Shown here: positions 41,442-48,674 of the stretch, in pieces | Position numbering within the stretch: position 1 is the first letter of the stretch | Layout of the letters: each line of letters starts with the position of its first letter | Made by a program: the position numbers and the translations under genes | The notes under the pieces: model-generated | What the model was told of the DNA's origin: nothing | What the model saw: the letters and a program-made list of their open reading frames with translations, nothing else | Database searches by the model: none | NCBI GenBank assembly: GCA_035275405.1 | Contig: DATEMU010000003.1 | Span: 1,054,001 to 1,118,000 of the forward strand | Reading direction: 5' to 3' | DNA: 64,000 nucleotides | DNA from: Phycisphaerae bacterium | Lineage (GTDB): Bacteria; Planctomycetota; Phycisphaerae; UBA1845; UTPLA1

Positions 41442-41504
41442 AAGCCGCGTGAACTGGGCTGGACGTCGGGGTGCCGTTTCGGAGGCGGTTCATTCCGGCG
41501 GCGG
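41442..41504. repeat. Direct repeat, right copy
   Basis: AAGCCGCGTGAACTGGGCTG then GACGT matches the left copy (40428) at 22 of 25 positions; GGTTCATTCCGGCGGCGG matches at 16 of 18. Substitutions break the hairpin, so this is an older or decayed copy. Confidence 0.65.
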
Positions 41505-41547
41505 GGCTGGATATCATATTTCTGAACACGGAGCCAAAGGACGATTC

Positions 41548-42048
41548 ATGCCCACGAGCCAGCGTACATTGAGGGAACTGTCGGGAATGCGCTGGCTCGT
41601 CGAGGCCCGGAACAAAACCCAGAGCTTGATGGCCGATTTATACGAGGCGTTTCCGTGCGAGCATGTTAGTGTCGACGAGACGCTCCGAGACCGACTTCAT
41701 CTAATGCTCGGCGCAGCCTTTTCACTGTGGCGCGCAGTCTTTCTCATCAGCCCCGAAGACAGCGAACGATCGTTCGCCGACTTAGAAGGAGACGCCAGGG
41801 AGTTTCTGAAACGAGTGATCGATACTAACGCGATCACGTTCAATGACGAACTCAGGTGGCGCGCTTGGTCGGGCGGCTATTACCTAAACAACGCCAGACA
41901 GCGCGTCTTTGACCTCGGAAAAAAAAGGGGGTTTGAGGGGTCTGTCCCATCGAATGTGGTGTTGAGGAAGGCGTGGAACAAGATTTATGAAGAACTAGAC
42001 AAGATCATCAAGAAACACCAACAAATGGGTGAGAGTCAACGCTCATGA
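41548..42048 (+). CDS. Hypothetical protein at edge of lower-GC island
   Basis: 166 residues from ATG 41548 with AAAGGA just upstream. Mostly helical: LRELSGMRWLVEARNKTQSLMADLYEAF, LRDRLHLMLGAAFSLWRAVFL, SFADLEGDAREFLKRVIDTN, and a Lys-rich C-terminus. ITFNDELRWRAWSGGYYLNNARQRV is a distinctive stretch. No family recognised. Its composition is more A/T-rich than the housekeeping genes nearby. It is convergent with the kinase cluster. Confidence 0.65.
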   Translation: MPTSQRTLRELSGMRWLVEARNKTQSLMADLYEAFPCEHVSVDETLRDRLHLMLGAAFSLWRAVFLISPEDSERSFADLEGDAREFLKRVIDTNAITFNDELRWRAWSGGYYLNNARQRVFDLGKKRGFEGSVPSNVVLRKAWNKIYEELDKIIKKHQQMGESQRS

Positions 42049-42217
42049 AAACGTGCGGCCAAACGCGCGGTAGAGTAGAGCAAGTAGCGCGGCACCATAG
42101 CGGCGGGGTGTATCTTGTTGCTGGTCGCGGGGCAGGAGGAGCAGGTTCGAGAGGTTTGGCGGCGCTTGAGTAGCGCGGATGCAACCAGGAACTGCTGAGG
42201 TTGCGAGGATTTCGGTC

Positions 42218-42511
42218 TTAGGTGGAGAGTTTTTCGAGGGCGTTCGCTATCGCTTTTTGTCCAATTGTTTTGAACGCATCGTCGGGCATGTCTTTGTATC
42301 GTGAGTGAATCTGGCGGCTTTGAATCGACGGGTGATCCAATCCGGGCTGCCCTGCAAGAAACTTGTAATTTGCAATCTTCTGATTCATGCTGGCCCAGCC
42401 CATGCCGAGGCGGTCGGCTAACTCCTGCTTCGAAGTGCCCAGCCCCGCGTCCCCAAAGCGGAAGAGGTAGTAGCCGATGAGGTCGTCATCTTCTGACCAT
42501 TTGTGATTCAT
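42218..42511 (-). CDS. Small HTH-like protein linked to the kinase gene
   Basis: 97 residues. ATG 42511 overlaps the kinase stop (42508-42511), so translation is coupled. DLIGYYLFRFGDAGLGTSKQELADRLGMGWASMNQKIANYKFL looks like a helix-turn-helix in which ELADRLGMGWASMNQKI would be helices 2-3. No close family is recognised; similar N-termini occur in restriction-system-linked small proteins, but this is only an impression. Confidence 0.6.
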   Translation of the reverse strand: MNHKWSEDDDLIGYYLFRFGDAGLGTSKQELADRLGMGWASMNQKIANYKFLAGQPGLDHPSIQSRQIHSRYKDMPDDAFKTIGQKAIANALEKLST

Positions 42512-44148
42512 AACGGGTGGCTGTCCGAGTTTCCGGGGGAGCGGAGTTTAGCGAGTTGGGCGATTGCAAAGTTGTCGTTTGGAACCAAATCGAGGACTCT
42601 GACGAAACATTGGATCGCCTGATCAATATCTCCCTTGCTGAGGGCAATTAGACCGAAATTGTGCCACGCATTCGCATCTGATGGTCGAGCTTTGGTCCAA
42701 GAAGATAGCAATGTTTCGGCGGCTGCAAAGTTCTTTTCATTAAGAACCTCCCTGAGCAGCGCTTCCGCTTTTTCCAGGACAAGCGGCTTGGAGGGGCGAA
42801 GCCTGATTGCCTTAGCCGTGAGGGCCGCTGCTTCCGTAAACTGCTTTCCCAGGACGAGAGGTCCAACAAGATTCATCATGGCGGCCGTATTCTCAGGATC
42901 AAGGACTAGCGCAGTCGCGTAAGCTTTTCGGATTTCATCAATAGGCGCACTCATCCTGTTGAGCAATATCCCGAGGTTGTTCCAAGAATGAGTATTGTAT
43001 GGGTTTAACTCCAACGACTTTCGTGTCGCTATAATGGCATCTTGGTATTCACCGCGTTCAATGTGTAGTCGGCCTTTCTCGGTCCATCCGCAAGCGTTCT
43101 CCGGATATTGCGACACGTACTTACAGATTGCATCTAGTGCGCGGTCCTTATTCCCAAGAGCCACGTAGCTCTGTGCCTGAGCATAGAGTTCCTCGTCTTC
43201 CTTGGCGACTTGTGTTTGTTTCACGAGCTTTGTTTTCAACTTTTTCGCGACGGTGCTCAAGTTATCGAGCAACTCGTTGTAGCTTGCGTATCTTCGGTTT
43301 GGGTCCTTCGCCAGGCACCGTGCAACGATCGGCATTAGGGGCGACTCAAGTGGCACGGGCTTCTGTTGGCTGTGCGCCCGGAAAAACTCAGCGGTAACAT
43401 CAGCAGCTTGCTGATTGATTCGATACGGATACCGATTCCCGGAGGCCATCTGATAAAGGACAATGCCAAAACTATAGATATCGGCTCGATGATCAACATT
43501 TCGAGCATTCGTGAATTGCTCCGGCGCCATGAAGGGAGTGGTGCCCATCGCGACCCCCTTGATCGTTCTCGCAAGTGGGCTTGCCTCACGCTTTTTTGCG
43601 AAGATCCACCAGCGGCGCTTGTCACTAACGGCGTTGGTGTTAATCGATTTAGCCAGCCCAAAGTCGGTAACTTTGAGCGTCATGGCCTTGTCGATCATCA
43701 GATTGTCCGGCTTGATGTCGCGATGGGCAACGACCCCTTTCGATTTCGCATAATCCATGCCGTAACAGAACTGCGTCGCCCAAAGAAGGACAACCTCTGG
43801 GCACAATTGGGAAGCCGTCAGAAAGTGTGACAGGTTGTTTCGACCGTCCTCGTCGGGTTCTATGTATTCGGCGGCGATGAAAAGCTGTCCGCCGATTTCA
43901 CGAACCCAATACGCTTGGACAAGATTTGCATGTGCCCCAGCACTTATCCAAGCATTTGCCTCTGAAATAAATCGGCACCTTGTGCCTTCGTCGCCCGCAC
44001 CTTGGAAGGTCTTGAGCACGATGGGTCTTGGAATCTCCCAGTCTTGGACGAGATAGACGACGCCCATGCCGGACTGGTTTGCCCCACCGAATACATTCAG
44101 GACGGTGTACTCGCCACCTATCTCGTCACCGGTTTTATATTGCTGCAT
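42508..44148 (-). CDS. Serine/threonine protein kinase with TPR repeats
   Basis: 546 residues from ATG 44148 (MQQYKTGDEIGGEYTV); an in-frame start at 44223 overlaps the previous gene. The N-terminal kinase is complete: Gly-loop FGGANQSGMGVVYLV, Lys46 in IVLKTF, HRDIKPDN (142-149), DFG (162-164) and APE (208-210). From about 320 to the end there are tandem TPR-like helices, e.g. ALGNKDRALDAICKYVSQYP, AWHNFGLIALSKGDIDQAIQCFVRVLDLVP. No membrane span. It lies 26 bases after the pseudo-protease gene and is coupled to the small HTH-like gene. Confidence 0.92.
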   Translation of the reverse strand: MQQYKTGDEIGGEYTVLNVFGGANQSGMGVVYLVQDWEIPRPIVLKTFQGAGDEGTRCRFISEANAWISAGAHANLVQAYWVREIGGQLFIAAEYIEPDEDGRNNLSHFLTASQLCPEVVLLWATQFCYGMDYAKSKGVVAHRDIKPDNLMIDKAMTLKVTDFGLAKSINTNAVSDKRRWWIFAKKREASPLARTIKGVAMGTTPFMAPEQFTNARNVDHRADIYSFGIVLYQMASGNRYPYRINQQAADVTAEFFRAHSQQKPVPLESPLMPIVARCLAKDPNRRYASYNELLDNLSTVAKKLKTKLVKQTQVAKEDEELYAQAQSYVALGNKDRALDAICKYVSQYPENACGWTEKGRLHIERGEYQDAIIATRKSLELNPYNTHSWNNLGILLNRMSAPIDEIRKAYATALVLDPENTAAMMNLVGPLVLGKQFTEAAALTAKAIRLRPSKPLVLEKAEALLREVLNEKNFAAAETLLSSWTKARPSDANAWHNFGLIALSKGDIDQAIQCFVRVLDLVPNDNFAIAQLAKLRSPGNSDSHPL

Positions 44149-44174
44149 CAGCCTGCTCTTGCTGGTCCTTTTGT

Positions 44175-44891
44175 TCAGAAGCCAAGCTGACGAATTACAA
44201 AGGTCCCTATCGCTAACGCCCATCCTACAAGAAAAGCTGAGAGAACGACTACGCCAATAAGCGACACGCCTACCTGCTGCTTGACGTACTTTTCATAGTC
44301 AGTCCGTTTCCACTGGATCAAGGTAAAGAGCGCCTGGCCGCCAGCGAAAAGTGGGATGGGAATGCTGTTAATCGCTGCGAATTTTGCAGCGACCGTGCTT
44401 AGGCCAATGGCAACCGTACTATCTCCGATGAATTTCAAAGCTCGTCCTATTAACTCAGGCCCGACGACGAAGGGATGGCGTGCGCCTTCCCAGAATTGGC
44501 CGAAAGTCTCTACGGCTTCCGCTGCAACATTTCGGGGGGGTGACAATGTGCAGGCGAGAACGAGCAAAGAGATTGGGCCGCTCAAAATGATAAATGCCCT
44601 TGCGATCGGATGGACGTCATCAAAAGTGTCGGTTGGGATGCTCGACCGTGGCATAAGCTCATCGGCCGACGATGCTCGGGTTCGAAACTTAGCGAAACTA
44701 CCGGTCGGGATCCAACCAACAGACACCTTTACCTGATGGACGACAACCGTTACCAATCGGCGTCCATAGAAGAGCTGGATTTCTTCGAGACGGACGCCGC
44801 ATATGATCGCGAAAAGGGCTTGCGATCCGGTGAAACACGCGGTACAGAGCGCTGCGTACGCGCAGAACTGCAGGAAGGCAATCACGTCCAT
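44175..44891 (-). CDS. Site-2 protease (M50/RseP)-like membrane protein lacking zinc ligands
   Basis: 238 residues, four or so membrane spans. It aligns with the M50 intramembrane protease layout: CGVRLEEIQLFYGRRL (30-45) follows the first helix as in RseP CGVR..., GWIPTGSFAKF (59-69), RAFIILSGPISLLVLA (98-113) and NSIPIPLFAGGQALF (175-189). The zinc-binding HExxH is replaced by FTGSQ (20-24), and the third-ligand Asp of 'NxxPxxxxDGG' by Ala183. It should therefore be inactive as a protease, with a sensing, scaffold or chaperone role. It is directly upstream of the kinase gene. Confidence 0.75.
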   Translation of the reverse strand: MDVIAFLQFCAYAALCTACFTGSQALFAIICGVRLEEIQLFYGRRLVTVVVHQVKVSVGWIPTGSFAKFRTRASSADELMPRSSIPTDTFDDVHPIARAFIILSGPISLLVLACTLSPPRNVAAEAVETFGQFWEGARHPFVVGPELIGRALKFIGDSTVAIGLSTVAAKFAAINSIPIPLFAGGQALFTLIQWKRTDYEKYVKQQVGVSLIGVVVLSAFLVGWALAIGTFVIRQLGF

Positions 44892-45238
44892 TCGTAACCG
44901 TTCAGAATCAGAATTCGCTGAATAATAATGCCTTGGCGCTCAGCAAAAAAAATTGAGTGATGCGCATTAGGCCTTTGTCGTGACTCCGTTGTACACCACG
45001 GAAATATCATCATCCCGAGCACAGGGCCTGTCGAGGGACGGAGGACCGCTCGATGAAGTCGCCGTCAGGCTGGGACGAGTTCGCGGGGTTGCGCTTGGAC
45101 GATCGGCGCGCGGCGGATGGGCGGCGTGGGCGATTCTTCCGGCAAATGCTGGATCGCCCAGTTCAACTGCTTGCCGGTCGCCGGGGTGATCATGGATGGG
45201 GGCGGGGCGGGGGGAGGTTTCGCCGCGCACGGCCACGG
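44892..45238. other. Gap with a pseudogene remnant
   Basis: About 350 bases hold the upstream region of the pseudo-protease gene, an eight-A run near 44946, and the remnant at 45065-45193. No intact gene is seen. Confidence 0.5.
45065..45193 (-). pseudogene. Remnant of a paralogue of the radical SAM gene
   Basis: On the minus strand the 42 codons ending at 45065 read MITPATGKQLNWAIQHLPEE.., closely matching the last 42 residues of the radical SAM protein at 46061 (MIAPATGEQLNWAIQHLPDE..), including the terminal RELVPA and stop. Upstream of Met the similarity stops. It is what is left of a second, diverged copy whose body is lost. Confidence 0.8.
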
Positions 45239-45583
45239 TTATGGTACGGCGATACCGAATGACCGCATCAGGGCTTTTTCGATTTCCTGAAGCAGGGCGG
45301 GGCTTATTTTTCCGGCAAAACCGCCCCGGCGCAGGCGGGATCGCATGATGTAGCTGACGTTCTCACATCGGGCCATCGACGGCTGTGATATCCCGCCTTG
45401 TCCCTTGGGCAGCGGGACATGCGTCGGGGCCGGGCGGAGGTTGGTGGTCAAAGGAACAGCCAACACGCTGTTGCTGAATTGATTGCGCGCATCCAGCGAT
45501 ACGATCAGCGCCGGCCGCGACTTGGCCTCGTCGGGAAATTCAACCAGCCACACTTCGCCGCGCTCCGGGAATTGACGTTCCAC
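45239..45583 (-). CDS. MazF/PemK-type mRNA interferase toxin
   Basis: 114 residues from GTG 45583. The MazF fold is clear: RGEVWLVEFPDEAKSRPALIVS, SVLAVPLTTNLR, THVPLPKGQGGISQPSMARCENVSYI. It should cleave RNA at short motifs and be blocked by the product of the gene before it, whose stop is nine bases upstream. The arrangement with the antitoxin first is typical for this type II system. Confidence 0.88.
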   Translation of the reverse strand: MERQFPERGEVWLVEFPDEAKSRPALIVSLDARNQFSNSVLAVPLTTNLRPAPTHVPLPKGQGGISQPSMARCENVSYIMRSRLRRGGFAGKISPALLQEIEKALMRSFGIAVP

Positions 45584-45592
45584 GGCCAGGGC

Positions 45593-45829
45593 CTATTTTC
45601 CTTCCCATGCCTCGCGGCTGTCTCGGGCCACGGCCTCGCCCCACGAATCGTCGTCGGCGTCGGGTGGCGCCTGCTTCTCGTAATACTCGCGCGTCGCGAC
45701 CTCGAGTTCGCTCGCCGAGTTGCCGTTGGACGATTCGAGCAGCACAACGACCTGCGTCTGCGGCGACGCCTCCAGCGGCTCGTCGGGGACGACGACCGAT
45801 CCGTCGAAATGTGCCCTAATTCCGATCAT
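45593..45829 (-). CDS. Antitoxin partner of MazF
   Basis: 78 residues, N-terminal IRAHFDGSVVVPDEPLE resembling the small beta-strand domain of antitoxins of the DUF2281/AF2212-like kind, then an acidic disordered C-terminus (REYYEKQAPPDADDDSWGEAV), as expected for a toxin-binding tail. It precedes the toxin by nine bases and would be its antitoxin; a DNA-binding role is not clear. Confidence 0.72.
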   Translation of the reverse strand: MIGIRAHFDGSVVVPDEPLEASPQTQVVVLLESSNGNSASELEVATREYYEKQAPPDADDDSWGEAVARDSREAWEGK

Positions 45830-48218: not shown

Positions 48219-48674
48219 CTACCAGCCGCCCTGATCGCGGCCGCCGCCGCCGCGGTCACCGCGGTCACCGCCACGACCACCACCGCCGCCGCCGTAACCA
48301 CCGCGCCCGCCGCCGCCGCCACCACCGTAGCCGCCGCGACCTCCACCACCGCCGCCACCGCCGTAGCCACCGCGACCACCACCACCGCCGCCGTAGCCAC
48401 CACGACCACCGCCACCGCCGGAGCGCGGGGGCTTGGGCTGGGCTTCGTTGACCTTGAGGCTGCGGCCGTCCAGATCGGCGCCGTTCATGGCGGTGATGGC
48501 CGCCTGGGCCTCGGCGTCATTGTCCATCTCGACGAAGGCGAAGCCGCGCGATTCGCCGCTGTCGCGATCGCGGACGAGCGAGACCTTGGAAACCGAGCCG
48601 TGCGCGGCGAAGGCCTCGCGAAGTGCGTCTTCGGTGGTCGAGAACGAGAGATTGCCAACATAGATATTCTTCAA
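48219..48674 (-). CDS. RNA-binding protein with RRM and RGG/Gly-rich tail
   Basis: 151 residues. An RRM occupies about 1-80: RNP2 IYVGNLSF at 4-11 and RNP1 RGFAFVEM at 43-50. The rest (about 83-151) is a Gly/Arg/Tyr-rich tail made of GGRGGYGG-type repeats, encoded by tandem DNA repeats. Cold-shock-induced small RRM proteins of cyanobacteria and planctomycetes have this layout; it likely binds RNA and may phase-separate. Confidence 0.93.
   Translation of the reverse strand: MKNIYVGNLSFSTTEDALREAFAAHGSVSKVSLVRDRDSGESRGFAFVEMDNDAEAQAAITAMNGADLDGRSLKVNEAQPKPPRSGGGGGRGGYGGGGGGRGGYGGGGGGGGRGGYGGGGGGGRGGYGGGGGGRGGDRGDRGGGGRDQGGW
48240..48420. repeat. Tandem repeat encoding the Gly-rich tail
   Basis: Repeats with GCCGCC/CCACCACC and TAGCC units encode the RGG/GYGG tail of the RRM protein. 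Codon-length repeats of this type often vary in number between strains. Confidence 0.75.

Follow-up and report, generated by a model that had tools for sequence, protein, structure and literature searches.

A predicted site-2 protease homologue without catalytic residues, encoded beside a Ser/Thr kinase in a Phycisphaerae genome

In this study, we describe a small membrane protein, here called PsiS2P, encoded in a 64,000-nucleotide stretch of Phycisphaerae bacterium DNA (the window), in which a site-2 protease (S2P) fold is predicted to persist without its zinc ligands and catalytic glutamate. Both the fold and the loss of catalysis are strongly supported by alignments and by structure prediction, and PsiS2P is very probably a pseudoprotease. 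The gene opens a three-gene operon that also encodes a soluble Ser/Thr kinase. This operon is the best clue to the function of the protein, which we tentatively read as a non-catalytic membrane anchor or receptor for kinase signalling.

Fold and catalytic positions of PsiS2P

The gene lies on the minus strand, with its ATG at 44891 and a TGA whose last base is 44175, within a stop-free frame of 254 codons; when the region was shuffled by mononucleotides, the longest frame was shorter in 500 of 500 cases. The features on which its interpretation depends are these:

44175..44891, minus strand: PsiS2P, M50/site-2 protease homologue without catalytic residues (238 aa; RseP core without PDZ domains)
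44820..44834, minus strand: FTGSQ codons, residues 20-24, at the place of the zinc-binding HExxH (alignment to 12 canonical M50 proteins; profile alignment to RseP chains)
44574..44588, minus strand: ILSGP codons, residues 102-106, at the second transmembrane helix
44337..44369, minus strand: NSIPIPLFAGG codons, residues 175-185, the kept NxxPxPxxxGG framework
44337..44345, minus strand: AGG codons, residues 183-185, at the place of DGG, with the third zinc ligand changed from Asp to Ala (same two alignments)

A sequence-only reading had placed the protein in the M50/RseP framework, and this assignment stands: CGVRLE (residues 31-36), ILSGP and NSIPIPLFAGG are all found in the translation, and the only Pfam family matched is Peptidase_M50 (PF02163; E 4.9e-11; score 42.8 bits, cut-off 27.2), so that similarity to M50 is established above the family threshold. 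The match pairs residues 26-216 with positions 19-217 of the 221 in the profile, starting just past the missing motif. The NCBIfam model for RseP, TIGR00054, scores 28.9 bits, below its equivalog cut-off of 147.55. An initial AlphaFold model built with five sequences had a pLDDT of 76.8, and the model built with ten reached 89.1 (pTM 0.84), with poor prediction only at residues 79-84. The first seven Foldseek matches of the model in the PDB are all site-2 proteases. By VIA-align, the predicted fold superposes on Escherichia coli RseP (Z 20.9, 220 residues, 3.4 Å, 17% identity) and, as had been suggested as a check, on other members including SpoIVFB (RasP, Z 20.1; Aquifex RseP, 19.4; MjS2P, 10.1; SpoIVFB, 9.7). 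The nine entries with Z of at least 8 are all S2Ps, and the next entry scores 6.1. These structural Z-scores come without residue pairs, and the mapping of the zinc ligands rests on sequence alignments. As the aligned RseP range is roughly the whole chain, against 238 residues here, the portion missing from PsiS2P is presumably the PDZ part.

In a MAFFT alignment of the PsiS2P family with 12 canonical M50 proteins, FTGSQ falls on HELGH/HEFGH and AGG on DGG, and the same register is obtained when a five-member profile is aligned by HMMER to solved RseP chains. The two substitutions that had been proposed, FTGSQ at the HExxH site and Ala183 for the Asp of DGG, are therefore both borne out. The protein has three His residues (52, 94 and 139), and a scan of its sequence for another HExxH-type motif or spacing found none, which disposes of a relocated site of this type. 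Given these registers and the lack of an alternative motif, both His ligands, the Asp ligand and also the catalytic Glu (Thr21 in PsiS2P) are gone, extending the suggested loss of three zinc ligands to four key positions. That the protein is used for binding, not cutting, as previously read, is supported on the side of cutting, whereas binding is what we infer from the retained fold. With RseP and other M50 proteases, PsiS2P shares the fold, the order of transmembrane segments, the β-hairpin and the NxxPxPxxxGG framework, whereas it lacks HExxH, the catalytic Glu, the zinc-binding Asp and the PDZ domains.

Relatives within the phylum

Sampling of relatives was confined to one phylum, where eight distant full-length relatives were found, with 19-27% identity. 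A single-protein query over a phylum sample of 392 genomes gave two of them (genomes G139 and G231), profile searches added those in G180, G258 and G251, and a profile search of 298 genomes of the class gave those in G559, G486 and G545. A nine-row profile run over the 392 genomes returned no new full-length member; at E 1e-13 it matched 13 genomes, six with known full-length members and seven with partial matches in long ORFs. Among 61 genomes (that of the window and its nearest), only PsiS2P itself and partial matches in long ORFs were found. The 38 genomes of the order of G486 held just the two known members and two such partial matches, and in the 23 genomes of the class of G139 that genome stood alone. 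Profile A1 matched 175 genomes, mostly partially and in long M50 ORFs; five of the 30 loci fetched, together with L052, were read. Four candidate loci (L015-L018) were rejected as relatives, since their likeness to PsiS2P is limited to a short DYEKYVKQ-type stretch within an otherwise unrelated protein. No relative of PsiS2P was found in plasmid records, and a search of viral contigs with short exact patterns gave no confirmed relative of PsiS2P or of the 97-aa protein of its operon. From the few members in the phylum, class and order samples, we conclude that the family is rare and patchy.

At the place of HExxH the nine proteins read FTGSQ, HMGSI, TLIAQ, TMPAM, FAAAA, NAIQA, HVGSM, SVGAR and HLTAF, the register near this motif being uncertain for L052 and L039, and at the place of DGG they read AGG, AGG, AGG, NFG, PGG, YLG, NGG, NGG and NGG. 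The first His is thus kept in three of the nine, the Glu, the second His and the Asp in none, with Asn for Asp in four. A complete HExxH or the DGG Asp occurs in 0/9 members, against both in 12/12 comparison M50 proteins, which were chosen for having them. P62, P178, P180 and G185 are invariant across the nine, and the residues at the replaced catalytic positions vary. Alignment of homologues, which had been put forward as a check on whether the substituted positions are conserved, gives a divided answer: the loss of the site is common to all eight relatives, whereas the substituting residues are not conserved.

In a tree, the nine lie on one side of a branch and the 12 canonical M50 proteins on the other (support 100/100), and the split persists when the active-site columns are removed (91/90). 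Fragment L041 was dropped from this tree, and small active M50 proteins are represented in it by L069 alone, which is short but canonical (HELGH, DGG). The topology favours a single loss of the catalytic site, which, with branches this long, is suggestive only. Active proteins may still be nested within the pseudoprotease clade, because the 12 comparison rows were picked by HExxH and DGG and include L069 as the only small active M50.

A further M50 ORF, longer than the pseudoprotease gene (553-885 codons), is found in all nine genomes, so that the dead copy does not replace the protease. In the seven of these ORFs that were read (all but those of G180 and G258), HExxH is visible in five and PxPxxDGG in four, with at least one of the two in each; most of the fetched stretches cut the ORF, which bears on these counts.

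The kinase operon and its surroundings

The other features of the locus are the following:

42508..44148, minus strand: Ser/Thr protein kinase with TPRs, 546 aa (Pfam Pkinase, 1.7e-29, and TPR families; motifs, hydropathy)
42218..42511, minus strand: 97-aa protein, with a 4-nt overlap between its start and the kinase stop (third-position GC 0.65)
41500..45000, no strand: low-GC segment (0.51-0.55 in 500-base windows; the three windows closest to it on either side are at 0.63-0.67)

PsiS2P is the first of the three minus-strand genes. The kinase gene begins 26 nt after it, at an ATG at 44148; an alternative ATG at 44223, inside the PsiS2P gene, is possible. With its VLK, HRDIKPDN and DFG motifs, the kinase looks active. 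Hydropathy predicts no transmembrane or hydrophobic segment in it, and the 97-aa protein likewise has none, which leaves PsiS2P as the sole product of the operon with predicted transmembrane segments. A promoter scan gave sites at chance level (3 against 2.2). The 97-aa protein reaches no curated family (weak match to phrog_21120, E 0.001) and, among 294 genomes, was found only as itself, so that the complete three-gene operon has been seen once. Plasmid records contain no relative of it at E 1e-3, with only weak matches up to E 10, and phage records contain none.

A kinase gene lies near the family member at two of the nine loci, stretches of 10-19 kb having been read around the relatives. 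The second case is G486, where genes on one strand encode, in order, a Ser/Thr kinase (L083:3354-4463; 369 aa, HRDIKPQN), a 770-aa protein without a Pfam match, an Hsp70 (E 4.2e-74), a TPR protein of 151 aa, an FHA protein of 174 aa (E 2.6e-11) and, immediately after the FHA gene, the PsiS2P relative (L079:5010-5789). FHA domains are reported to recognise phosphorylated S/T peptides (PMC7159879), and this run (L079:5010-12334 with L083:3354-4463) could constitute a separate kinase-chaperone signalling system. The kinases of the window locus and of G486 share 29% identity over 180 residues, as ordinary kinase relatives do. In the stretches from the other seven relatives no kinase motif was found, and the neighbours differ and are unrelated. 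In G139 (L019:7955-10973), the pseudo-M50 gene is flanked on one side by a gene for a 479-aa protein, which has a single hydrophobic stretch at its N-terminus, and on the other by genes for two small proteins (160 and 114 aa) that belong to no known Pfam family.

The operon has a GC content of 0.525, that of the whole window being 0.617. At third codon positions its genes have a GC of 0.57-0.65, against 0.77-0.90 in three resident-looking genes; these low values suggest that the segment was probably acquired. Just upstream of the operon lies a gene for a 114-aa protein (45239-45583, minus strand), which we take to be MazF/PemK-like, preceded by one for a 78-aa protein (45593-45829, minus strand) that is presumably its antitoxin. 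Convergent with the operon is a gene for a 199-aa protein (41449-42048, plus strand) of lower GC (0.54), which has no match in Pfam, PADLOC or PHROGs and no relative in plasmid records. At 48219-48674 (minus strand), there is a gene for what we assume to be a short protein of the RNA-binding type, whose long tail is rich in glycine and arginine.

Proposed role and alternatives

The reading of PsiS2P as a membrane anchor or receptor follows from the presence of a substrate-binding fold without a cutting centre, made together with a soluble kinase that carries protein-binding TPRs. The S2P cavity and the membrane β-hairpin would bind a transmembrane segment or a membrane signal, PsiS2P would contact and thereby hold or regulate the kinase translated from the same mRNA, and the kinase would in turn phosphorylate a target, possibly through the 97-aa protein. 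We infer a kinase partnership for these pseudoproteases from two of the nine loci. In the window genome the adjacency could be due to chance, since more than 30 other kinase matches are present there.

Pseudoproteases of the rhomboid fold, such as iRhoms and Derlins, are important regulators. For the S2P fold, the only pseudoprotease in the literature searched is a plant one, EGY3 of Arabidopsis chloroplasts, which is reported to stabilise chloroplast proteins (PMC10978774). In the account consulted, EGY3 resembles PsiS2P in being an S2P homologue without HExxH that is kept in a non-cutting form (predicted, in the case of PsiS2P), whereas it differs in being a plant chloroplast protein; the likeness is one of working, not of descent. 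We know of no operon or kinase link for EGY3. An intramembrane-protease fold is also reported to serve as an adaptor without need of cutting in rhomboid pseudoproteases and in the bacterial rhomboid YqgP, an FtsH adaptor independently of cleavage (PMC7231995, PMC3149277), although these belong to an unrelated fold family and the partners described for them are FtsH or client proteins rather than a kinase. Among the matches listed in literature searches for inactive M50 or S2P proteins, none was a bacterial family of S2P pseudoproteases. In a review of bacterial site-2 proteases (PMC10202637), 'kinase' and 'Planctomycet' do not occur, and the best 12 of 35 places with 'inactive', 'pseudo' or 'lack' name no pseudoprotease. 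If our reading is correct, a bacterial family in small kinase/FHA operons would offer a simple system for studying an S2P fold that only binds and the possible coupling of a soluble kinase to a membrane signal.

Several other explanations have to be weighed against the anchor or receptor. PsiS2P might be a dominant-negative or substrate-holding copy that, like iRhom, binds transmembrane proteins which the resident active RseP would otherwise cleave, and so protects them. In line with this, all nine genomes have the longer M50 ORF, the seven that were read each show one or both catalytic motifs intact, and the RseP core and β-hairpin are kept; however, the PDZ domains found mid-chain in RseP are missing, the association with a kinase operon is left unexplained, and a common conserved substrate is unlikely in a family that has diverged to 19-27% identity with long branches. 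We consider this account unlikely. That the gene is a decaying pseudogene retained by chance is the least probable of all: the variable residues at the lost catalytic positions and the rare, patchy locus would agree with decay, but the intact ORF beyond 500/500 shuffles, the tight operon, the confident intact predicted fold, the full-length ORFs in nine genomes and the kept P62, P178, P180 and G185 speak against it. Scarcely more probable is a different enzymatic activity or metal site on the same fold, which the first His in 3/9 and the Asn for Asp in 4/9 might suggest, since no group of polar residues common to the nine stands in for the ligands.

A decoy or guard role in a conflict system, where a dead RseP copy would lure a phage or bacteriocin factor aimed at the real one and so trigger the kinase, is a rather improbable option, although it would suit a low-GC, patchy locus beside a gene pair that we take to be MazF-like. 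The reading draws on a 2020 survey of VMAP and related NTP-dependent conflict systems, which reports inactive enzyme copies beside active counterparts as well as kinase, FHA and Hsp70 parts (PMC7159879), and RseP is reported to be a bacteriocin receptor in other bacteria (PMC9672952). The MoxR-vWA or GTPase parts that define VMAP-type systems were not noticed beside the PsiS2P locus on a casual reading of its neighbours. The operon kinase scores best with the PADLOC PD-T4-6 kinase models (E 6.5e-47), but it is matched by many of these models and by generic kinase families alike, and the PD-T4-6 scores reflect the kinase domain in general. Moreover, no PADLOC model matches PsiS2P or the 97-aa protein, and no relative was seen in plasmid records or in the short-pattern scan of viral contigs. 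Joining this idea to the anchor or receptor, one may speculate, at somewhat longer reach than for the decoy itself, that an undescribed bacterial family of S2P pseudoproteases provides Ser/Thr kinase modules with their membrane sensor, and that in the present locus an RseP decoy would bind an invader's factor without cleaving it and convert this binding into a phosphorylation signal.

The best plasmid relative of the operon kinase (28% identity over its length) is encoded downstream of a TIR gene on a Chloroflexota plasmid, which gives at most a lead. On the Chlorohelix plasmid NZ_CP128402.1 (L054:290-7187), Swt1-HEPN, TIR and Ser/Thr kinase genes stand in tandem, the last two overlapping by 4 nt, in what is possibly a defence operon.
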